Program-made: the position numbers and the translations under genes
Notes under the pieces: model-generated
Told to the model about the DNA's origin: nothing
The model's input: the letters and a program-made list of their open reading frames with translations, nothing else
Databases searched by the model: none
Origin: Acorus gramineus
Lineage: Eukaryota > Streptophyta > Magnoliopsida > Acorales > Acoraceae
Reading direction: 5' to 3'
NCBI GenBank assembly: GCA_030737835.1
Contig: CM060849.1
Span: 9,570,268-9,634,267 of the forward strand
Length of the DNA: 64,000 bases
Part shown: positions 9,449 to 51,929 of the stretch, piece by piece
How positions within the stretch are numbered: the stretch's first letter is position 1
Layout: each line of letters opens with the position of its first letter

Positions 9449-17812
<8,364 letters not shown>

Positions 17813-32228: not shown

Positions 32229-33620
32229 AGCGATTACATGCGGTCGTGCAAATTTTACTGTTTCGTGCGATTTTTAAACTGGACCGTCCAATCAAGCGTC
32301 TATCGATCGGATGGTCAGTTTTTTTTTAAAAAAAAAAAAATTAAAGACAAAGAGAACCGGCTCTACCGGGTTCAATGAGCTAAAAAAAAACAAGGAAAAA
32401 AATCACTTTCAAACCCTCTCTGTTTTCTCTTCTCTCTCTTCCATTTCACTCTGCTTTTCTTCATTTCAACCACCCTGAGAACCACCAGACACCATTCACG
32501 CCCCCCCTCCGAAATTCCTTCTCCTCACGCGGATCCCCCCTCCGGCATCTCTTCTCCTCACGCGGCACCCCATCTCCACACCGTCCGTTCGTGCACGTCA
32601 CCGTCCTCGTCACAATCCTCGACCCCGCACCGTCCTCGTCACACGGCACCGCGCACCGTCGCCGTCACCGTCCCTATCCACACAAAACATTCAATGTGAG
32701 TATTGTCTATCGATTGCCTTTGTATTTCATTATCCATGGTTTTCATTTTTTTTTTAAATGGTTTGCTAGTATGTTAGTTTCAAGGGTTTGTATTTTGTTT
32801 ATTTTTTTCATGAAATTGGTTTATGCAATGGAAAGCCTTTTAAAGGGTTTTTTATTTATTTATGTTGTGCTTAGATTAGGTTGGAGTCCTTAAGATTTGA
32901 GGATCACTTGATGATGAAATTGTTGAGAATAGGGAATCATTGTATGGTTTTAAGATTAGTGCTGAAATGGTCAAATTTGTCTCTGTGTATGAGCTTGTTT
33001 TGAAGTTTTATGTAGTGCTTAGATTAGGCATATGTTTAAATCCCAATTAGATTGTGATATTCATGAAAAAAAGAAGAAGAAGAAGAAGAAAGACTGATTG
33101 TGACATTGATTTTTTCAATTGAGATGAGATTTACTTTTATAATTTTAAAGGGTGTAGATTTTAGGGTTTATAAGTATTTTTTTAAGGGTTTGTATAATTT
33201 TTTTTTAGCATAATTCTGATATTCACATAACAATGTTTGAGATTCACAAGTTTTGAAGGTTGGGAAAAAGAATCACATAACAATGTTTGAGCTTCACAAG
33301 TTTTAATTTTTTTTTTTGAATTTTTGGTTTTCTTTGTTGAAAATAAGATTTGGGTTCCCAATGATGTTTTTAATGTACCATGCTAATTCTGAGATTCGTT
33401 GAATGATTGAATATGTTCTTAAGATTTCTGAGGGAGCCCATTTTTTTATTTTATATTATTATTTATTTTTTTGAGTTATGATTCTTGATACAAAGTGATG
33501 GTGTGAGAATAAATGTTTGTGATAATGGCGTTTAAGGTTATGAGATAGTTAACAAAATTTGGAATACTTTATGCTTGTGACATATATCTCTAAAAATTTC
33601 GTTGTAACACCATCCAAGGT
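32229..33620 (+). repeat. MULE left terminal inverted repeat with leader exon
   Basis: A 1,392-bp TIR. The outer 200 bp carry the diagnostic terminal words and CGATCGGATGGTCAG. A C-rich, CpG-rich leader block follows (about 32400-32695). A splice donor ATTCAAT/GTGAGT at 32695/32696 would join to the acceptor TTTTTTCAG at 34320, placing the first coding ATG two bases into the next exon. The promoter for the accessory gene is therefore expected here. Confidence 0.85.
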
Positions 33621-34322
33621 TGATGATCTATTCAAATACGGTGGCAGTCTCAAACCAACAAAAAAATGCCACTCTGATTGAATATGGTATTTGAATGAAT
33701 CGTGTGCTTCTTATGTTAATCACCAAGAGCCATCTACCATGTTAAATCTAAGGAAAATATTGACTCAATCTTTTTTACTGTCTAAAATGTTGATCACACA
33801 CACACACACATATATATTTTAAATAGTAAGCATCTTGTAACGAGGTATATAAAAGTTTTTAAACCTTTGGCTTTTGGCACTGGTTTAATATTCACACACA
33901 AGTTTCTTGTAGCATTGATTCAGTAAATAATAGGTTGGGAAGGCTGAATTTGGTGTGCATTCAAGTCTTGGCTTTGGCAATTGTTATTGTCTGGTAGTGT
34001 ATTGGTAATTATGAAGGCACTTGGTTCTATAGATTTCATGTATGCAGATACTTTCTTTAGTGACACTCCATATATGAAAACTTGAAACTGTCATCCACCA
34101 TGATGTGGATTGAATCTTTATCTTAAAAATCCAAAGAGACTGCATCTACTTCCTAATAATAAAGCATTTTGTCCATGTTGTCATAAATATGAGAATGTCC
34201 ATGTTGTCTTACACTCCTCTATGTTTTCCTTAATAGTTTCCTTTTCAATATGAGTTTCATGTGTGTGTTAATGTTTTTTTTTTTTTTCTTTCTCTTATTG
34301 TTTTTATGTTGTTTTTTCAGCT

Positions 34323-36768
34323 ATGGCTCGACGTAAGAGGCCTGCAACTTTGGAAAAGGAAAAACAAATGCAACCACTAAAAAAAGCTAGACAATCTACA
34401 AAGCCTTCAAGCACAAAATTATCAGAAAAAAGAATTCCAAAGAATTTGAGGTCCCACAAAAACAAAAAGACCATACAAAAGGTAATTTAACAAGTGAAGA
34501 ATACATTCTTTCCTATTAATACTCTTATTATATTGCATACACTCTTTGTATTTCTTATTTTTATATTTATAAACAATTTGACAGGATAAAGTGAAAAATG
34601 GTCAAAATACACTTAACATGAGATGTTATCCGACCAAATTTCTCAAGATTGTGCAAAAGTTAGAACTCAAAGAACGACGTATCAAGGCAATGGATAAAAC
34701 ACCGTTTGGGCATTTTCTTAAGATGCCCAGTCTTTTGTGTGAGAGAACCATCTTGGAGAAAAGTTGTGGAGTATGGGAGAAAGGAAGAAAAGGTTTTAAA
34801 CTGGGAAATTCAATCATCCCCTTCAAAGTCTCCGATTGTGCATTAATCCTGGGTTTGAGTAGTCATGGAGAAATTGTTGACTTCGAAAAGGATGGTGAGT
34901 GTACAGAGTTGCAAAAAAGGTTTTTTGATAAATCTCCTCCAACAACAAAGAATATTGTAAGGCATCTCCAACGACTGATGTTGTATGAGATAGGGGGGGC
35001 ACTAGAAGATTTCATGAAGATGATGGTTCTCTTATTATTTTCCACTGTTCTCTTTCCCCAAACAAATTTTGCGATACCGATTCAGCTACTGAGATATGTT
35101 GATGAGATTGAAAGACTAGGAGACTATGCATGGGCAGATGCAGTGCATAGATTTTTGATAAAGCACATACCTGATGCGTCTGATCGGGTAAGGAGTAAAA
35201 AAAAAGGAGAAAGTCAAAGTGCCGGATATATCAATGGGTGTGCCATTCTCATCAATGTAAGTCATCAACTCTTAGAATGATTGTAATTGACAATACTCAT
35301 TTGTCTAAAATTAAATTTTGATTTTGACAGGTATTTGTCTATGAGCATAGCAATATTGTGAAACCCAAGTCCATTGCACGCGATAAAGTGCCCAGACTTT
35401 TTAAATGGGAATCAATCAAACATCATCGAAAAAATTCAGCGGCTATGCTAATTGAGGGGATGAAAGACTTCCAAGTAAGTGTTTCATTAATATTAGTTTG
35501 TTTATTATTCATATTATATGTATTATTTTAAAGTCAATATGACTTTGAGACTTGTAAGATATTGATTTCAATCTTGTTGTTTATAGGTGATTGAAAGACT
35601 TGTGCCTCGTGATGTGGAGAATACGTTTCTTTCAAAAAAGGTTACACAAGGGACAAAAAATGAATGTAAACAAGATAGCTTGGAATCTATTATAGCAGAA
35701 AGAGATAGACTATTTGAGGAAAATGTGAGACTGATGAAAGAAAATGATCGGCTCACAGGTGAGAATTCCCGGTTGACAGCAGAAATTCATATGTGGATGA
35801 AATCATTCCATAATGCACAGTCGGGTGTGAAGAGGGATGAAAATGAATTTCTATCTACTGGATATTCGATGTCCTCCTCCACCAATGAAGATGTCAATAA
35901 AGATGAATATGTTGAAAATGATCAAGAGGCGTGTCAAGTTGACAAGGATGAACAGAAAGACACGGAGCAAGAAACTCACACTACAAAGGATGAAAGCAAA
36001 CAAAAAGGAAAAGGGAAAAGAGATAAGAAAAAAGGTTCCAAGATAAGTTCTCCTTATCTTTTACTTCCATCCTCCACCAAGAGGCGTCACAAGGTATTAA
36101 TGCGTATTACCATTAGATAAACTCTGATGTACACTAGCTAAAATCTATTGATTTTTATATATTTTTTAATATCATTTCTATCATTTCAGATTGTACCGAT
36201 GGATGATTTAGATGAAGTTGACAAAAAATTGATAGGCAACTTTTTGAATTTAGAAATGAATGGGTAATGCTTTAGTGTTATAACTCATTTTTAGTTTAAT
36301 CATTATGTTCCTACTTATTATATTTGATTTCATCCAGAGCAATTGTGTTTGAGAATGAAGACACATTTTGTACGAGGAAGCAAATATTTGAATTGTTAAC
36401 AGGAAGATGTCTTGAGGGAGATGTAAGCTAAATGAAGTTTGTATGTGCTTTTCATATTTCAATCTTGTAACATTATAAATAACATTAACACTTTCTTTAT
36501 CTTATAGGTAATCAATGTTTGTGGTTATATTTTTCAAGAGCGGAGTCGAACTGAAGATGGAGAACTAAGGACTATATTTGTGTCATCATTGTTTCATGTA
36601 TGTATGAAGTGTTTTGGTAATATTCACTGACAATATTATTAGACCTCAATTCTTATTTGTATATTGTTGGTATAACAGTATTGGTTTTCAAAAAAAGAAA
36701 TGAAGAAAGCAGAGAAACATTTGAGTGCTTTTCATTACAACTATACCAGTGTTAAGATCAAAGCTTAG
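34323..36768 (+). CDS. MULE accessory protein, DUF1985/mobile-domain-like with C48-like tail
   Basis: Eight proposed coding exons: 34323-34451 (end uncertain), 34585-35256, 35331-35474, 35587-36093, 36190-36263, 36338-36422, 36508-36597 and 36679-36768, about 596 aa. The N-terminus is Lys/Arg-rich. Exon 2 has FGHFLKMPSLLCERTILEK, FKVSDCALILGL and later FLIKHIPDAS and YINGCAILINVFVYEHS, resembling the DUF1985 or plant-mobile-domain regions found with Ulp1-like genes in plant transposons. A leucine-rich coiled coil (SLESIIAERDRLFEENVRL) and a Lys/Glu-rich stretch follow. The last three exons (FCTRKQIFELLTGRCLEGDV onward) resemble the start of a C48 Ulp1 domain, but the protein stops before the catalytic His, Asp and Cys. 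The strong donor at 34482 would put exon 1 out of frame; the weaker GAG/GTCCCA at 34451 keeps frame. The function is unknown. Confidence 0.72.
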
Positions 36769-37050
36769 CCTCCGAAATGTATTCCACCGTTCATTATCTA
36801 TAGTCTGCAATGATTAAAATTGAAGCAAGTATTAGATCAAACTCATAGAACAAATGACCAAACGGAGTGACACATTGAGAAAATTGTTTACCATGCGCTT
36901 GTAGGTGCAAATGTTAGAAGCGGGAGTTTCATTTAATGAAATAGAATTATCTTGAGTATTTTGTGATAACCTGAAATAATCACATACCATCATATATCAC
37001 TAAGAAAATATGCAATAAATTAATGTTATCTCACAAAGTGGATTGTAGAC

Positions 37051-39237
37051 TTACATTTCTTTCAATTTGGGACAAGTACGTGCATTGTGTTTATCCTTTT
37101 TACCGCATACACTACAAGTTCGTCTCTTACCCATCTCTTCCATCGCTATTTCCTTACCCCCTTTCAATCTTTTGCCACTGCCTTTGGGTTTTGAAATATT
37201 CGGGGGATGGACATTCACAATCGAAGGAATTGACATGCTCGTGCATTGTGGTGGGTTGTTACTGCCACTTGTAGTGTGCGAGGCCTTGATTTTCTGCAAT
37301 TCAACCAACATATCTTTTGCTACGTTGCACACTTCAACAGGAGCATCATTCAAACATTCTGCAAAACCACGCACGATCTCAATATTCTTCCTGCCACTTG
37401 ACTGACCTAATGTTCTCTGTGCTTGAAGTTCTACTCCATCCTTATCATATACTGACCTCGATTTGGCTGTGGTAGTCCATCTTTCAAGGATGAGATTTTC
37501 AGGTAAGCAATTGATGAAATTGTTTCTCAAAACAACAATTATATGAGAACATGGAATGCCTTCATTCTCAAACTTCTTGCACGAGCAATTAATTGCTTGA
37601 GATGAGGGATTAAATGAAACTTCACGATAATTAGATGAATCCCCCATCCCCAACCTTCTAACAATATGCACTTGAACATCTTCTTCAAATTTCATCATCG
37701 ATCCACACTGCATAGAAGATATAACTTCCTTTTGAAACATGTAAAACATTTTGTGAGTATATCTTTTGGCCATTTGAGATTCAATATCATAATTTGTTGC
37801 AAGTTCTGGACTTTTATCAAATGTCCCGTGATCAGCCACTAGTTCATTGTACTTTTGACGCTCTAATGCTCTTTCAAAAAGATGAATGAACTCAATGAGA
37901 CTGTTATTTTTATTGAAGTATTTATCAAAAACAGAATTTTGAGATTCACTTCGTTGACTACTCTTCATTCCTGCCATGAAAATGTCTTTAAAATATAATG
38001 GAATCCACTTTTCACGGATTAGAAACATTGTCGACAACCATTCATTCTGCTCTAACTTGAATTTTCTGATTATCCCCCACCACTTTTCTTCAAACTCATC
38101 TGAAGTTTCTGAGCCATATACGCATGCTTTGAAGGGCTCTAAAAATTCACTTCTATAAGAAACTGGGCTGACTTTCTCTGTTACCTCTTTCATTATGTGC
38201 CAAATGCAAAATCTGTGAGGCACCTGAGGGAACAAATGTGCAATTGCAGCCCCAATTGCAGGATCTTGATCGGTGATGAATGCTTTTGGAGGACTATTTC
38301 CCATTGCATCCAGCCATTTTTCAAAAAGCCACATAAATGAATCAATCTTCTCATCATTTAACAAGCCACAACCAAAATTAATGGATTGAAAATGATGATT
38401 CACTCCAGTAAAAGGTGCACATATTAGAGAATACTTGTTTGTGCTATAAGTTGTGTCAAACACAACTACATCTCCAAAATGACCATAGGCCTTTCTTGCA
38501 CCCCCATCGGCCCAAAAACAGTGTGTCAACTTGTTATCTCTGTCCACTTTATACGCAAAATAACAAGATGGATTCATTTCAGATTTTTCTTTGAAGTGGT
38601 TCAAAAATAATTCTGCATCATAATCCTTCAATTCATTTCGATTTTTGCCTATGTAGTTCCGAATGTCTCTCTCCGTACATCCAACCTCTTCATACCCTCC
38701 TGAATCCATACCCAAAATAGACATGGTCTGTGCAGTGCTGACATTGGCTCCTCTAAATGTGTCAATCAAAGATTTTTGAGCATTTGTTACTTCTCTATGC
38801 GATCTCAAGAGGTGTATTTTTCTGGGAGTACACAAAACATGGGAATGACCTTCAACAAGACTGTGCACCTTCCATCTTTCACCATCTTTCATTAAACTGA
38901 TTTTAGCCTTGCAACCTAATCGCACATGTCCTCGGGTTTGTTTTATAGTCGAAGATTTTTTAAATCCTTCTTTGGAATAGACAAAATCTCTGAAATAAAG
39001 TTCTTTTGCACCATCATTATTACGATATTTTGTTGATGACTTTCGAACAGAAAAGCCTGAAATTTTTGCATAATTCACATAGAACTTTTCTGCTTCTTCA
39101 AAAGAATCGAAAGGCATTCCCATTAATGGTTTACATTGTTCATCTACGTCCGGAATCCAAATACCGCTATGATCACCATACAATGATTCTAAATTCTGAA
39201 CAGTTTCTTCAAGTGTATCGTCATCTCCACTAAACAT
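37051..39237 (-). CDS. FAR1/FRS-like MULE transposase, intact
   Basis: One uninterrupted 728-codon frame. Residues about 48-140 form the FAR1 DNA-binding (WRKY-GCM1-type zinc) domain, starting FDSFEEAEKFYVNYAKISGF with conserved Cys109 and HSHVLC at 131-136. The MULE transposase core follows, with acidic positions at D261 (FDTTYSTNKY), D323 (ITDQDPAI) and a Glu candidate in EFEEKWW (381-387), plus the C-x2-H motif CIWH (344-347). A SWIM zinc finger CSC-x9-CSH lies at 551-565, and a C-terminal Cys/His knuckle (CSVCGKKDKHNARTC) near 708-722. This is the full domain order of autonomous plant MULEs from which FHY3/FAR1 were domesticated. Lack of stops, full length and long near-identical TIRs suggest a young, possibly active element. 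It acts in the nucleus on the TIR ends. Confidence 0.95.
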   Translation of the reverse strand: MFSGDDDTLEETVQNLESLYGDHSGIWIPDVDEQCKPLMGMPFDSFEEAEKFYVNYAKISGFSVRKSSTKYRNNDGAKELYFRDFVYSKEGFKKSSTIKQTRGHVRLGCKAKISLMKDGERWKVHSLVEGHSHVLCTPRKIHLLRSHREVTNAQKSLIDTFRGANVSTAQTMSILGMDSGGYEEVGCTERDIRNYIGKNRNELKDYDAELFLNHFKEKSEMNPSCYFAYKVDRDNKLTHCFWADGGARKAYGHFGDVVVFDTTYSTNKYSLICAPFTGVNHHFQSINFGCGLLNDEKIDSFMWLFEKWLDAMGNSPPKAFITDQDPAIGAAIAHLFPQVPHRFCIWHIMKEVTEKVSPVSYRSEFLEPFKACVYGSETSDEFEEKWWGIIRKFKLEQNEWLSTMFLIREKWIPLYFKDIFMAGMKSSQRSESQNSVFDKYFNKNNSLIEFIHLFERALERQKYNELVADHGTFDKSPELATNYDIESQMAKRYTHKMFYMFQKEVISSMQCGSMMKFEEDVQVHIVRRLGMGDSSNYREVSFNPSSQAINCSCKKFENEGIPCSHIIVVLRNNFINCLPENLILERWTTTAKSRSVYDKDGVELQAQRTLGQSSGRKNIEIVRGFAECLNDAPVEVCNVAKDMLVELQKIKASHTTSGSNNPPQCTSMSIPSIVNVHPPNISKPKGSGKRLKGGKEIAMEEMGKRRTCSVCGKKDKHNARTCPKLKEM

Positions 39238-39802
39238 TTTAACTGTAATATGACAACAAATAAAAGAAATAATTCACCTACCATCAAACAATACTCATAA
39301 GCCATTCCATCAAACAATTTTATGTGATCCGTTATAAGGCTATTAGCAAAAGGGTATTCAAGTGTTCAATAACTATGCATGATCACTGTCTAAAATATTC
39401 AATGTGATTATGCATGCATGAAAATAAGTTTTTTTATAGTTGATGAAATAATAATGTTCAATTATCATGAGTCTCATTTTCTTAATTGAAAGTGTCATAT
39501 AATATTGTCTTGTGTTAATCATTACCAATACGACCTAATCTTTTTCACATGTCCATCACCTTCAAAAATCAGCCACCCACCTTACCAACATGGGTTGATC
39601 CCCACTCTTTAACTAAGCAGGACAAAATATAAAAACTTAAAACTTACAAACCCTTTAAAAGATTCCATTGCATGAACCATTTCATCAGCCCCCACCAAAA
39701 AAGAAAAACAAGACCAATGGTAAGAGTACATAAACCATTCACAACAATGAGAGTGACTACCTACCATTTCCATAAACAAAAAAACTAGAAACCCAAACAA
39801 AA

Positions 39803-41223
39803 ACCTTGGATGGTATTACAACGAAATTTTTAGAGATATATGTCACAAGCATAAAGTATTCCAAATTTTGTTAACTATCTCATAACCTCAAACCAACACC
39901 CCATTATCACAAACATTTATTCTCACACCATCACTTTGTATCAAGAATCATAACTCAAAAAAATAAATAATAATATAAAATAAAAAAATGGGCTCCCTTA
40001 GAAATCTTAAGAACATATTCAGTCATTCAACGAATCTCAGAATTAGCATGGTACATTAAAAACATCATTGGGAACCCAAATCTTATTTTCAACAAAGAAA
40101 ACCAAAAATTCAAAAAAAAAAATTAAAACTTGTGAATCTCAAACATTGTTATGTGATTCTTTTCCCCAACCTTCAAAACTTGTGAATCTCAAACATTGTT
40201 ATGTGAATATCAGAATTATGCTAAAAAAAAATTATACAAACCCTTAAAAAAATACTTATAAACCCTAAAATCTACACCCTTTAAAATTATAAAAGTAAAT
40301 CTCATCTCAATTGAAAAAATCAATGTCACAATCAGTCTTTCTTCTTCTTCTTCTTCTTCTTTTTTTCATGAATATCACAATCTAATTGGGATTTAAACAT
40401 ATGCCTAATCTAAGCACTACATAAAACTTCAAAACAAGCTCATACACAGAGACAAATTTGACCATTTCAGCACTAATCTTAAAACCATACAATGATTCCC
40501 TATTCTCAACAATTTCATCATCAAGTGATCCTCAAATCTTAAGGACTCCAACCTAATCTAAGCACAACATAAAAAAAAAAAAAAACCCTTTAAAAGGCTT
40601 TCCATTGCATAAACCAATTTCATGAAAAAAATAAACAAAATACAAACCCTTGAAACTAACAGACTAGCAAACCATTTAAAAAAAAAATGAAAACCCTAAA
40701 TAATCCAAAAACCATGGATAATGAAATACAAAGGCAATCGATAGACAAAATCACATTGAATGTTTTGCGTGGATAGGGACGGTGACGGCGACGGTGCGGG
40801 GTGCCGTGTGACGAGGACGGTGCGGGGTCGAGGATTGTGACGAGGACGGTGACGTGCACAAATGGATGGTGTGGAGATGGGGTGCCGCGTGAGGAGAAGA
40901 GATGCCGGGAGGGGGAATCCGCGTGAGAAGGAATTCCGGAGGGGGAGGGCGTGAATGGTGTCTGGTGGTTCTCAGGGTGGTTGAAATGAAGAAAAGCAGA
41001 GTGAAATGAAAGAGAGAGAAGAGAAACAGAGAGGGTTTGAAAGTGATTTTTTTCCTTTTTTTTTTAGCTCCCTCGATCGAACCCGGTAGAGCCGGTTCTC
41101 TCTGCCTTTAATTTTTTTTAAAAAAAAAAAAAAACTGACCATCCGATCGATGACACTCGATTGGACGGTCCAAATTGAAAACTGCATGAAACAGTAAAGT
41201 TTGCACGACCGCATGTAATCGCT
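39803..41223 (-). repeat. MULE right terminal inverted repeat with leader exon
   Basis: A 1,421-bp TIR, the reverse complement of the left one with small indels. On the minus strand the same C-rich leader block is followed by the donor ATTCAAT/GTGATT (exon end 40755). The acceptor TTACAG at 39243-39248 lies four bases before the transposase ATG, so the transposase would also receive a TIR-encoded leader. Confidence 0.85.
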
Positions 41224-45460: not shown

Positions 45461-45929
45461 GGTGGGATGTAAATTCCGAGTTACTGTTCATCGTCTCCTA
45501 CCTTGAGCCCTCTCTCTCCTCTCCTCCGTTTTCTTGCGTTTGAGCCCCTTAGACCCCTCAAACCTTAAAAGTTAAAACATAGGAAGTGTAGATCGGGTCC
45601 CGATCTACACTCCGGTGTTTTCAAATCCCAATTCCGGCGAGTTTTGCCCGTCCGTCCGCCCTCTCTTCTCCTCTGTTTTGAGCCATCTCGGTGGTGGAGG
45701 TAGATCGGGGCGTTGGAAGCCTATGGGGAAAGGTTTCGGCGCGCGGAGAGCGTCCGGACTTCCCTTCCTCCCCTCGGTAAGCCCTATTTCCCCTCTTTTC
45801 TTGCATAGATGTATGCTAGGGAGGTGGTTTTGTGGTTGGGAGGCGGTTGGCGGCGGTGGGTGGCCGTCGGAGGGCTGTGGGAGGCGGTCGGAGGCTGTGG
45901 GGTGGTCGGAGGTGGGTGGTAGGGCAGCT

Positions 45930-46760
45930 CGGGCTGGCTGGCTGCTGTCTCGGGCAGGGCAACAGCGCAGGGCAGCAGGTGCAGTGGTTGGCGCGGGCGT
46001 GCGCGCGTGCGTGCGCTCGGGCGGTGCTGGGGGCCAGCAGGGCTGGGCGTGCGGGCGCTCGGCTGGCGCTGGGGGCCAGCAGAGCTGGGCGCGCGAGCTC
46101 GTGCGCGCGGGTACGCGCGCGGGCGTGCGCTCGGGGGGTGCAGAGGGAGGTGTGCGGTGCAGGCTGGCTGCGGGCAGTGGCTGTGCGCGCTGGCAGGCCG
46201 GGCGAGCTGGCTGGGCGCGCAGGCGAGCAGGGCAGGGGCGCTGGCGGGCGCAGTCGCGCGCGGGTGCGTGCGCGCGGGTGCGCGGGTTCGCGCGGAGCGG
46301 GCGCGCGGGTTCTGGCGCGAGCGGGAGTGCGCGCGGGTACGCACGGGTGCGCGCGGGCGTGCGCGCGCGGCCAGTGCGCCTGGGCGCTGGGCAGGGAACC
46401 AGTGCGCGCGCGCGCGTGCATGCGCGTGCGTGCGCGTGCTGGGGCGTGCTGGGGCATGCTGGGGCGTGCTGGGGCAGTGCGCGGGGTGCTGCGCGAGGGG
46501 CGCGGGCTGGACGCGCGGTGCACGTGGGCGCGCGCGAGCGTGCGCATGCGTGCGGGTGCGCGTCTGGGCTCGCGGGCAAGCGCGCGGTAGTGCGCCGATG
46601 GTGCCGGGATGTGTGCGTGCGTGCGCATTCGTGCGTGCGCATGCAGGGGGCCATGCGAATGGCTGCCCGAGGGTTCGGGTAGGTGTCGGGGCACTCGGAC
46701 TCGCGTGCGTACGCGCGTGCTCGCATGCGTGCGAGCCCGTATGCATGCTTATCCGAGTTT
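45930..46760. repeat. Extreme GC-rich alternating GC/GT block
   Basis: About 0.8 kb dominated by GCGCG, GTGCGTGCG and CTGGGGC words inside the solo LTR. It opens long frames on both strands (up to 390 codons) whose products are Arg/Ala/Pro or Gly/Arg/Ala low complexity; these are composition artefacts. The alternating purine-pyrimidine runs are prone to Z-DNA and the region is a dense CpG target for methylation. Confidence 0.8.
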
Positions 46761-47634
46761 TGGGTATTTCTATGCATTTTTATGTATAAATTGTGTGGTT
46801 TCTCACCATATTGAATGTCTGTCTTGCAGATCTAGACGGACGGTCGCGCGACGACCCCGATCTCTGGTGAGTGGGACAATCCAACCCAGTAGAGAGGTGT
46901 TATACGCACTTGGGCGTATACCGACCTCTCCTGGGGCACCATGGATAGATATTGACATGTGTAATATGTATATCATGCGAGCATGATTTAATTGTAGAAT
47001 GCATGTTACCCTAGACTTTGCATGTTAGGGACTTGCACCCTTAGGATATGTGTATGAGCCATGCAGCATGTCCCTTGTTTCCATGCTAGGAAGCCCGACC
47101 GATGCATGTGCCCTACTAGTTTATTTATTAAATTAAATGCTAGTATTTGTTTACATTGCATGTTATAGTGAATATTATAGGGGAGGGGCCTTGCGAGTAC
47201 AGCGGTGAGACCCGGGTTAGGGTACACCGTGTTCCTTGTTTGGTTGTCGGGGTGCCCTATAACGGGAACTCACGCTGCCCTCCCGAGTTTCTTTCCCCCA
47301 ATGATATTCCACCCTTGTTATAACCTTATGCATGTTCCCCGCATCGTAGTTATGCGCCCTGGTGGGTTCTGAGGAATTCAGAACATTAGTGTTGTTATAA
47401 TGTGCTGTCTGCGGATCCAAGTGGATCATATGCGATGGATAGGCTGTTCTGTTCCTTTCGTTGGATCCGGTAGAGACTACCCCAGCGTTAGACAGGGCCT
47501 TCCTGACAGAGGGCTCCCATTAGTAGGCACCTCCTGATTTGGTGACGGACTGTGCTGAATGTGGGAGTAGACCAGGTGGCCTACGGAGTGGAGGAGAGAC
47601 TATCGGTGGACCAAGGGTGACCAACAGCCTAGTC

Positions 47635-48518: not shown

Positions 48519-49992
48519 TTTTCAGTATCTTCTTTTGGACGAAAAGGATCCTTTTTGGGGTCAAGTAACCTTACTACCATTGGAGTACTTAATGGATGAC
48601 ATTTGTCCATATTAAAACGCTTCAGGATTTTTTCAACATATGTGATTTGATGAACAAGTATCCCATTTGAACTTTGCTCAATTTGCAAGCCGAGACAATA
48701 TCTTGTTTTTCCAAGATCTTTCATTTCAAACTCCTTTTTCAGATATTCGGAAGCCTTTTTGAGCTCTTCAGGAGTCCCAATTAGATTAATATCATCAACA
48801 TATACTGCAATAATGGTAAATCCGAGTTCCATTTTCTTAATAAATACACAGGGGCATATTGGATCATTGACATATCCTTCTTTTATTAAGTACTCACTAA
48901 GACGGTTATACCACATTCGTCCAGATTGCTTTAATCCATACAAGGATCGTCTTAACTTTATTGAGTACATATTTCGTGGTTTTGCTTCAGGCAATTTTAG
49001 TCCTTCAGGAACTTTCATATAAATGTCGGTATCTAATTTTCCATATAAATATGCAGTAACCACATCCATTAGCTGCATGTCAAGTCCTTCTGAGACTACA
49101 AGACTAATTAAATACCGAAATGTGATTGTGTCCATCACAGGAGAATATGTCTCTTCAAAATCTATCCCAGGTCTCTGCAGAAAACCTGTGCCACAAGACG
49201 AGCTTTGTATCTAACAATCTCGTTTCTTTCATTTCGTTTTCTCGCAAACACCCATTTACATCCTACTGGTTTAACACCTTCAGGGGTTAGGACTACTGGT
49301 CCAAATACTTGGTGTTTTGCAAGTGAATCCAATTCTGTTTGAATAGCAGCTTTCCATTGTGGCCAACAATTTTTTCGTCTGCATTCATCCACTGAACGTG
49401 GTTCTAAATCATTATCTGAAATGATTTCTGTAGCTACTGCAAATGAGAATATATCATCAACAAGCACTTGCTTTCGATCCCACAATATTTGTGAATTTGC
49501 ATAATTTATGGAAATTTCTTCATTTCCATGTACTTGTTCTTCATGCACGGGCGTCACTTCAGGGACGTCAGTCTCTTCAGGGACTTGTGTCACTTCAGGG
49601 ACTTCTTCCTCTATAGGAGTTATTATTGTGGGTCTTTCAAGTGTTTCATACTCTTCTAGAGAATTATTCTTCATTGTTTTTCTCCTTCGGGGAGCTGAAT
49701 CTTTTGAGCCTATAGGTCTTCCACGCTTCAGGCGTGTTTTTGTTGATTCATTAGCCGGCATATTAGCAGTTTTTCCTATTGGAACATTAATTCGAGCTGG
49801 AGTATTAGCAGCTGGAATATGTGATTTCATCACTTTTGCTGCATCATTGAATGCATCTGGCAATTGATGCGCAATTCTTTGAAGATGAGTGATTCTTTGC
49901 ACTTCAGTTTCACATTGATTAGTGCGAGGATCAAGATGAGACAAAGATGGAGTTTTCCATATAAGTTCACGTCGTTCTTCTGGCGACGGATT
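48519..49992 (-). pseudogene. Copia pol: reverse transcriptase, N-terminal part
   Basis: It begins with the linker (SHLDPRTNQCETEV, TPARINVPIGK), then the RT start (WPQWKAAIQTELDSLAKH, VGCKWVFARKRN, YKARLVAQ). At about 49188 one base is missing after CACAGG, changing the expected AQGF reading and giving a stop. The downstream frame resumes (FLQRPGIDFEE in the alternative frame, then MDTITFRYLISL). It contains KLRRSLYGLKQSGRMWY and the RT active site YVDD. It ends at RPKEDTEN where the nested LTR is inserted. Confidence 0.9.
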
Positions 49993-51329
49993 TTCTCCCC
50001 TAATGACGGGAATATTGTCTCATCAAAATGACAATCCGCAAATCGAGCGGTAAAAACATCCCCTGTCAATGGTTCAAGATATCTTATAATAGAGGGAGAA
50101 TCAAAGCCTACATAAATTCCCAATCGACGTTGAGGGCCCATTTTAGTTCGTTGTGTAGGGGCAATAGGAACTTGTACAGCACAACCAAAAATTCGAAGAT
50201 GTGAAATATTTGGTTGATGACCCAGTACGAGCTGTAAAGGGGAATATTGATGATAAGCAGTTGGCCGAAGGCGAACTAATGCTGCTGCATGCAATATAGC
50301 ATGACCCCAAGCTGAAACGGGTAATTTTGTCCTCAAAAGCATAGGACGTGCAATTAGCTGAAGATGCTTAATAAATGATTCAGCTAATCCATTTTGGGTG
50401 TGCACATGAGCAACAGGGTGTTCAACATCGATGCCATGCGACATACAATAGTCGTTAAAAGTTTTCGATGTGAATTCACCAGCTCCATCAAGACGTATTG
50501 ACTTTATATGATAATCCGAAAAATGCGACTGTAATCGGATTATCTGAGCAAGTAGTCTTGCAAATGCAGCATTCCGAGTGGATAATAGACAAACATGCGA
50601 CCATCTAGCAGATGCGTCTATCAATACCATAAAATACTTGAATGGTCCACATGGGGGGTGGATTGGGCCACATATATCCCCTTGGATTCTTTGCAAAAAT
50701 GTTGGTGACTCAACATTGACTTTTGTAGGGGATGGTCTAACTATCAATTTTCCTTGTGAGCACGAAGTGCATTGATAGTGATTAGGTAAAAGAATCTTCT
50801 GGTTCTTTAACGAATGCCCAAATGAATTATCAATTATTCGACGCATCATTGTAGATCCTGGATGCCCGAGACGATCATGCCAAAGTGTAAAAATATCTGA
50901 ATCATAGAACTTCTGGTTCATTACAGCATATGATTCGATTGTTTTTATGGTTGTATAATACAACCCAGATGAGAAAGCATGAAGTTTCTCTAATACATGT
51001 TTTTGGCCTGAAACAATTGAAGTAATACATAAATACTCCATATTGTTTTCATTGATAGTCTCAATATGATATCCATTAAGACGGATATCCTTAAAACTTA
51101 GCAGATTTCTTCTGGATCTTGCTGAATATAATGCATCATTAATACAAAATTTTGTACCTCCTGGTAATATTATATTTGCTCTTCCGGAGCCTTCAATTAA
51201 TTTCGTAGTACCAGAAATGGTATTAACATTTGCATTGATTAATGTCAATGTCGAGAAATATTGTTTATTTCGTAGGATCGTATGTGTTGTAGCGCTGTCT
51301 GCTAGACAAATGTCACCAACCATAGCCAT
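49985..51329 (-). pseudogene. Copia pol: protease and integrase part
   Basis: The open frame from the Met at 51329 shows the aspartic protease (DSATTH at about residues 10-15), the pre-integrase zinc region (WHDRLGHPGSTMMRR, then CTSC), and the integrase core with D (GDICGP), D (RLDGAGEF) and E (NGLAESFIKHL), then the conserved LRIFGCAV and GIYVGF segments. After about 49985 the frame is lost: the residues downstream (KNDVNLYGKLHL) are out of frame, while the expected SHLDPRTNQCETEV continues in another frame. An indel therefore lies near 49975-49992. A hydrophobic upstream extension of this open frame is not part of the protein. Confidence 0.88.
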
Positions 51330-51929
51330 TCTTGTAAAAAAAAAAAATGAAATAAATAAGATAAATATAAAAATAAGAAAAATGGATTTTAGATAACAAA
51401 GAAAAATTATAATTATAAAAATTATAAAAGTCTGATCGTACATCAGGTACGTGACCATATTTTTAAAGCACCAAATACATAACAATCATTTTCCTTGTGT
51501 TAGGGGTTTGTTCTGCAACCCTTTTCCCTTCAATTATGCTTTTGTTTAATAGCAAATCACTTCTAGTGATTTGAGATATTTTACAAACTTTATGATTGTT
51601 GTGCTTTCTCAACTATATAAATCATGATCTCATCATTCATGACCACAACTTCCATGGCGAACATAAAATAAAATGCATTTACTTCGGGTAATGATGCTAT
51701 GCCATTGAGTTGAGTTATATGATATTTTAAAAAAATCGTTGTTCGGCAACGAGAATATATAAAATTGATGCTCTCAATATTGCTACAACTGGAGCATATT
51801 TGAGGCATAATGGCCGGTGGACCTTTGTCAATGAGGTATTAATCTTTAAATCCTCTTCATTATGATGATGATGATGGTGAAATCTAATCATAATTTACAT
51901 GTTCCTGCTGGGATACATGGATCCTTTTT

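Follow-up and report, generated by a model that had tools for sequence, protein, structure and literature searches.

The window, a stretch of 64,000 nucleotides from Acorus gramineus (contig CM060849.1), contains two genes between long inverted arms at positions 32229 to 41223. A sequence-only reading took this region for a near-intact element of 9 kb and for a candidate for a little-described autonomous system. This raises the questions of what kind of transposon is present, if it is complete, and what its second gene might do.

The inverted arms, the transposase gene and the convergent spliced gene form a real element. The left terminal inverted repeat (TIR; 32229 to 33621) and the right one (39802 to 41223), both unstranded, are about 1.4 kb long and are 82-100% complementary by segment (32.2-33.6 versus 39.8-41.2 kb), in agreement with the long TIRs initially reported. 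Their outer ends at 32229 and 41223 match each other (AGCGATTACATGCGGTCGTGCAAA). A TA run is found just before the left TIR and a TA-rich run just after the right one; a target-site duplication of 9-11 bp is not readable there. The mudrA-like transposase gene (37051 to 39237, minus strand), assigned from its open reading frame and domain matches, is a single open frame of 728 aa with zero internal stops. Its product matches MULE (1.4e-28), FAR1 (7.1e-15) and SWIM (1.1e-5), so that the attribution of an intact FAR1-type transposase holds. The TIRs are long, as expected of the Mutator superfamily (MULE), Jittery/FAR1 type; from its domains and TIRs, the element is probably a Jittery-like MULE of FAR1 type. 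The partner gene (plus strand) and the transposase gene (minus strand) face each other. MuDR of maize also has two convergent genes between its TIRs, so the layout was correctly likened to it; the partner probably differs from that of MuDR, as its family has PMD and C48 domains (see below). In both genes, CAG, which resembles a splice acceptor, is found a few bases ahead of the start codon. This suggests a 5' leader intron that may extend back towards the TIR.

Elsewhere in the window, positions 45605-46789 are GC-rich and, on both strands, lack stops in several frames, with peptides that by eye resemble those of GC-rich inserts at two other loci (L030, L031). Open reading frames at 49162-51485 resemble, by eye, a Copia retrotransposon polyprotein, and a frame of 331 aa at 15364-16359 (minus strand) has no assigned identity.

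The partner gene (34323 to 36768, plus strand) has GT/AG introns and codes for a plant mobile domain (PMD), a charged middle part (coiled coil by eye) and the start of an Ulp1/C48 domain. Its exons are at 34323-34481, 34585-35256, 35331-35474, 35587-36093, 36190-36263, 36338-36422, 36508-36597 and 36679-36768. The proposed splicing on the opposite strand is thus confirmed, but the gene is not intact: it is 3'-truncated and ends before the catalytic His of Ulp1/C48. The spliced product (606 aa) matches PMD at 2.1e-12, and the domain search returned no Peptidase_C48 match for it. The partner had been attributed to a DUF1985/Ulp1-associated group. The association with Ulp1 is supported by the sister copies, whereas DUF1985 reaches only 20.3 bits in the N-terminus (cut-off 35.1); PMD passes over the same stretch (47.4 bits, cut-off 34.9). 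The name DUF1985 was therefore dropped. Among the domains singled out for checking, FAR1, MULE and SWIM are matched by the transposase, and C48 is matched by the joined exons of sister copies. An AlphaFold model of exon 2 has a mean pLDDT of 38.7.

A genome search with the element gave 70 listed matches (37 scored of 424 candidates), and the family is larger than this list. Among the matches listed, only the window copy is continuous with the window sequence from end to end. Ten sister loci were read with their flanks (one of these, C2c, on the left side only), and nine of the ten hold additional sequence where position 36731 of the window joins 36726. This sequence is 2.6-4.4 kb long in eight copies and 10.9 kb in C10, which carries an insert. 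The element is therefore not near-intact. The alignment to the sister copies restarts at 36726 in eight copies and at 36728 in C2b. Both junction edges have TGCTTT, except that the right edge in C2b is TACTTT. The additional DNA opens with further partner exons (HWHLLVINMKKGCFDAYTS, then CPRQNNGTDCGVFVLKYMECL in C9a), followed by a tandem array. The window copy has lost its middle across this 6-bp microhomology (36726 to 36731, unstranded), and with it the catalytic half of the Ulp1/C48 domain and the intergenic array. Despite this deletion, it still encodes a transposase. The copy at C9:4851571-4864453 is complete: its roughly 12.9 kb include the two TIRs, and both of its genes are open. The full-length form thus has about 12.9 kb and consists of a TIR, the partner gene (PMD, coiled coil, Ulp1/C48), the noncoding tandem array, the convergent transposase gene and the second TIR. 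As judged from these comparisons, the window element derives by internal deletion from a FAR1-type (Jittery-like) MULE family that was amplified recently.

The full partner has ten coding exons in the sister copies. Its frame is free of stops and frame breaks in four of the nine ten-exon copies (C9a, C6a, C5a and C10; in C5a, CA replaces AG ahead of exon 6) and is interrupted by stops or frame breaks in the other five, and the splice sites are retained almost everywhere. Pairwise dN/dS of the partner is 0.30-0.76 among the open copies and the window copy, based on only 1-11 synonymous changes per pair. For the transposase it is 0.11-0.56 inside the family and 0.18-0.19 against a relative at 82% identity. 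The joined C48 exons from sister copies match Peptidase_C48 at 6.9e-18, and the domain aligns with SENP1 at 3.3e-14. This alignment retains His, Gln and Cys at their positions, and Thr (AYTS) stands in place of the catalytic Asp in all 11 copies with exon 8 read (one has a frame break further on). In SENP1, these four positions belong to the active site. The His-Asp-Cys triad of an active C48 protease is thus incomplete, with Thr in place of Asp.

The array is noncoding, located between the genes, variable in length, and built from alternating subunits of 128 and 138 bp, which form a unit of 266 bp. In an alignment of 81 subunits of 115-150 bases (C10 left out), the best-conserved 15-mer is TTAAAACACATCCAG. 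Nine sister copies contain it without mismatch, each between 5 and 22 times, and there it is confined to the middle segment. The window has zero exact copies, and one match with two mismatches is found outside the element. The 8-mers of the array show no standout sharing with the remaining noncoding DNA of the element.

The pairing of PMD partner and transposase is a family trait. A genome search with the transposase gave 64 matching rows (best 61 of 1529 candidates scored; the family is larger than listed). Sister copies with the same gene pair had been called for, and among the matches listed, the PMD partner lies 3' of 16 of the 17 transposase rows with at least 95% identity, on the opposite strand and within 40 kb; the exception is C101. 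As C10 and C4 contribute two rows each, this corresponds to 14 of 15 loci. At three of them, the partner is distant and may belong to another element (26 kb at C2:1545248, 18 kb in C123, 13-17 kb in C10). This count drew on the full set of 64 transposase rows, on 62 of 150 PMD rows and on 20 of 21 C48-exon rows; the omitted PMD rows, judged by eye, are either weak or the second piece of a locus. A random capture unique to the window locus, which had been named as a refuting outcome, was rejected on these numbers. The other such outcome, copies devoid of the partner, does occur among distant relatives, which often carry a GRF gene instead. Among the matches listed, none of the 47 transposase rows with at most 83% identity has a convergent PMD partner on the 3' side within 40 kb. 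A PMD row is found within that distance at two of the 47, one on the 5' side with 25% identity, the other from a neighbouring element of the group with at least 95% identity.

The second exon of the GRF gene is found on the 3' side and on the opposite strand at 12 of the 27 transposase rows with 69-83% identity, among the matches listed. Such a convergent partner is found at 0 of 17 rows with at least 95% and at 0 of 20 with at most 65% identity (20-kb limit). All 57 GRF rows were considered with this limit; one of the 12 is 11.6 kb away, and 44 of the 57 have no listed transposase row nearby. The GRF partner has a GRF zinc finger (PF06839, 4.1e-7 for the joined exons of one copy) and, by eye, a coiled coil and, at the C-terminus, a hydrophobic segment (TM). 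At C9:584114, both TIRs (1.23 kb, 96.9%) enclose convergent transposase and GRF genes in about 7.6 kb overall, with one stop in each gene. This element was also noted as loci L029/L030 (C9:582538-590163), a 7.6-kb MULE with a convergent partner of the zinc finger-coiled coil-TM type and a stop in each gene. The partner slot thus takes different genes, GRF or PMD-Ulp1, in sister subfamilies. In a comparison of 189 columns from the transposase ends, which is weak, the window copy groups with copies at 81% and 82% identity, and a GRF-bearing copy at 74% is outside. The 81% copy (C78) has no GRF row nearby.

Five TIR bodies flank one core in the family with at least 95% identity, where the cores are mostly 96-99% alike, and each body was seen as a pair of arms. 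Body A occurs in the window and C9a (also in C127, L005 and L006), body B in C68 (also C10), body C in C7 (also C5a), body D in C2b (also as right arm of C6b) and body E in C6a. The TIR lengths in the family are 0.55-1.5 kb. Matches between bodies are mostly found in the terminal 30-65 bases, which consist of (TA)n and then a motif like CACAACCGATTACATGCGG, with short internal pieces in addition; bodies B and D share 130 bases at 75%. Remnants of body A are found on the left in C7, C5a, C10, C6a and C2b. Fragments of body D lie right of the core in C68 and C10, with short ones at that side of C7 and C5a; in C6a they lie left of it. Over its first 91 bases, TA run included, body B matches the TIR of the GRF-bearing element at 80%, and A and B have weaker internal matches to this TIR. 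At L021-L023 (C10:46000-73000), three TIR bodies are layered left of one core copy, with B outermost, then C, then A. The TIRs look as if they were replaced from outside, layer by layer. We consider it possible, though rather doubtful, that a constant transposase engine has both its convergent partner (GRF-coiled coil-TM versus PMD-Ulp1 with its own array) and its promoter-bearing TIR body (five kinds around a core about 97% alike) swapped as units. If true, partner and array would together form an anti-silencing cassette sufficient in itself, and exchanging TIRs would offer an escape from homology-based silencing.

The layout is real and of a broadly known kind. According to a grapevine study, ULP regions of MULEs occur in both orientations, in TIR and non-TIR elements and in Jittery-like families, some of which have a ULP sequence downstream of the transposase (Jitvine; Benjak 2008, PMC2528002). 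With ULP-bearing MULEs published and the window copy a deletion derivative, the view of a little-described autonomous system is only partly supported. By description, the sister copies resemble Jitvine-1 (11.9 kb) and Jitvine-2 (14.4 kb) as Jittery-like MULEs carrying ULP, but no TIRs are listed for these two, whereas the family described here has TIRs of 0.55-1.5 kb, a PMD N-terminus and a central array. KAONASHI (KI) elements are described with a ULP domain opposite to the transposase. A C48 gene opposite the transposase, as in KI/KIU, is found in the sister copies and the C48 core is missing from the window copy; the non-TIR ends of KI/KIU are not found, the TIRs being long. VANDAL elements are similar by a VANC N-terminus of DUF1985/PMD type and by noncoding tandem repeats. 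KAONASHI (KI/KIU) and VANDAL are described as non-TIR and VANC as having DUF1985 (PMC13317346, PMC5735166, PMC6117577); the family described here is set apart from these descriptions by long TIRs, a FAR1-type transposase and a PMD above the cut-off. AutoMuTAnT from Medicago shares a Jittery-like transposase and TA runs at both ends but is reported with one gene in 4.9 kb and no partner (PMC4486113). Other papers report PMD fused to MULE transposases (PMC5418596) and MULEs with several long TIRs (PMC3310237). Among the titles and beginnings of abstracts listed from one open library, no description of a PMD-Ulp1 partner paired with a FAR1-type MULE was found.

Our preferred explanation, to which we give somewhat less than an even chance, is that the window element arose by internal deletion from a Jittery-type MULE with a PMD-Ulp1 partner, and that this partner acts on the array as VANC does. 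VANC of VANDAL is reported to bind noncoding tandem repeats at short motifs and to cause hypomethylation (PMC5735166, PMC10398659), and Ulp1-bearing VANC anti-silencing genes of VANDAL MULEs act likewise on their own group, according to a review (PMC13317346). Each TIR would supply promoter and 5' leader to the adjacent gene, and the FAR1-type transposase would insert the element into TA microsatellites, a step proposed because TA runs were read at the ends. Like VANC of Arabidopsis VANDAL, the partner may bind the array with TTAAAACACATCCAG through its N-terminal part and strip silencing marks from family copies; its C48 fold would serve mainly in binding and less in ordinary proteolysis. The anatomy is well supported, and we infer the function of the partner by analogy: the variable-length array has a place comparable to that of VANC-target repeats, with putative binding. 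This explanation is favoured by the middle retained in the sister copies, by the matches of C48 (6.9e-18) and SENP1 (3.3e-14), by the convergent 3' partner at 16 of 17 rows with at least 95% identity among the matches listed, by the four of nine open partner frames and the dN/dS values (partner 0.30-0.76, transposase 0.11-0.56), and by the array, with TTAAAACACATCCAG in the middle segment of nine sister copies, together with the analogy to VANC. It is weakened by the array words not being shared with other noncoding parts, by the few synonymous changes, by DUF1985 being below the cut-off, and by the partner being found at 0 of 47 rows with at most 83% identity among the matches listed. Also, as the array is located between the genes, it may result from plain satellite expansion.

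The partner might instead be a captured host-like passenger gene (Pack-MULE type) that takes no part in transposition or silencing, a reading that we regard as unlikely. The 0 of 47 convergent 3' partners at 83% identity or less (among the matches listed), the stops or frame breaks in five of nine sister partners, dN/dS of up to 0.76, and one core between different TIR bodies, as expected from capture, are consistent with this. However, nearly all copies with at least 95% identity among the matches listed have the partner in one fixed arrangement, ULP-MULEs of other plants show the same association (PMC2528002), and the splice sites are retained almost everywhere, with four of nine frames open. 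It is less probable still that the partner functions as a SUMO/ubiquitin-like protease and changes host silencing proteins or the transposase. The C48 domain has the His, Gln and Cys that are presumably active-site residues as in SENP1, but Thr at the catalytic Asp position in 11 of 11 copies argues against activity, and a nomenclature paper regards Kaonashi products as unlikely to act on SUMO (PMC6117577). That the window copy is the compact original and the other copies gained a 4-kb insertion is highly improbable and was rejected, since the additional DNA, although flanked by a repeated short word as a target duplication would give, extends the partner exons in frame to a complete C48 domain and is common to nine other copies of different TIR types that were read across.

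For the biology of this family, one genome with recent copies presents a MULE lineage in which convergent partners and TIR bodies vary around a nearly constant transposase. Comparison of its subfamilies makes the role of MULE partner genes testable. If the function is confirmed, the combination of PMD-Ulp1 partner and array outside the non-TIR VANDAL group would suggest that anti-silencing modules may have a wider distribution.
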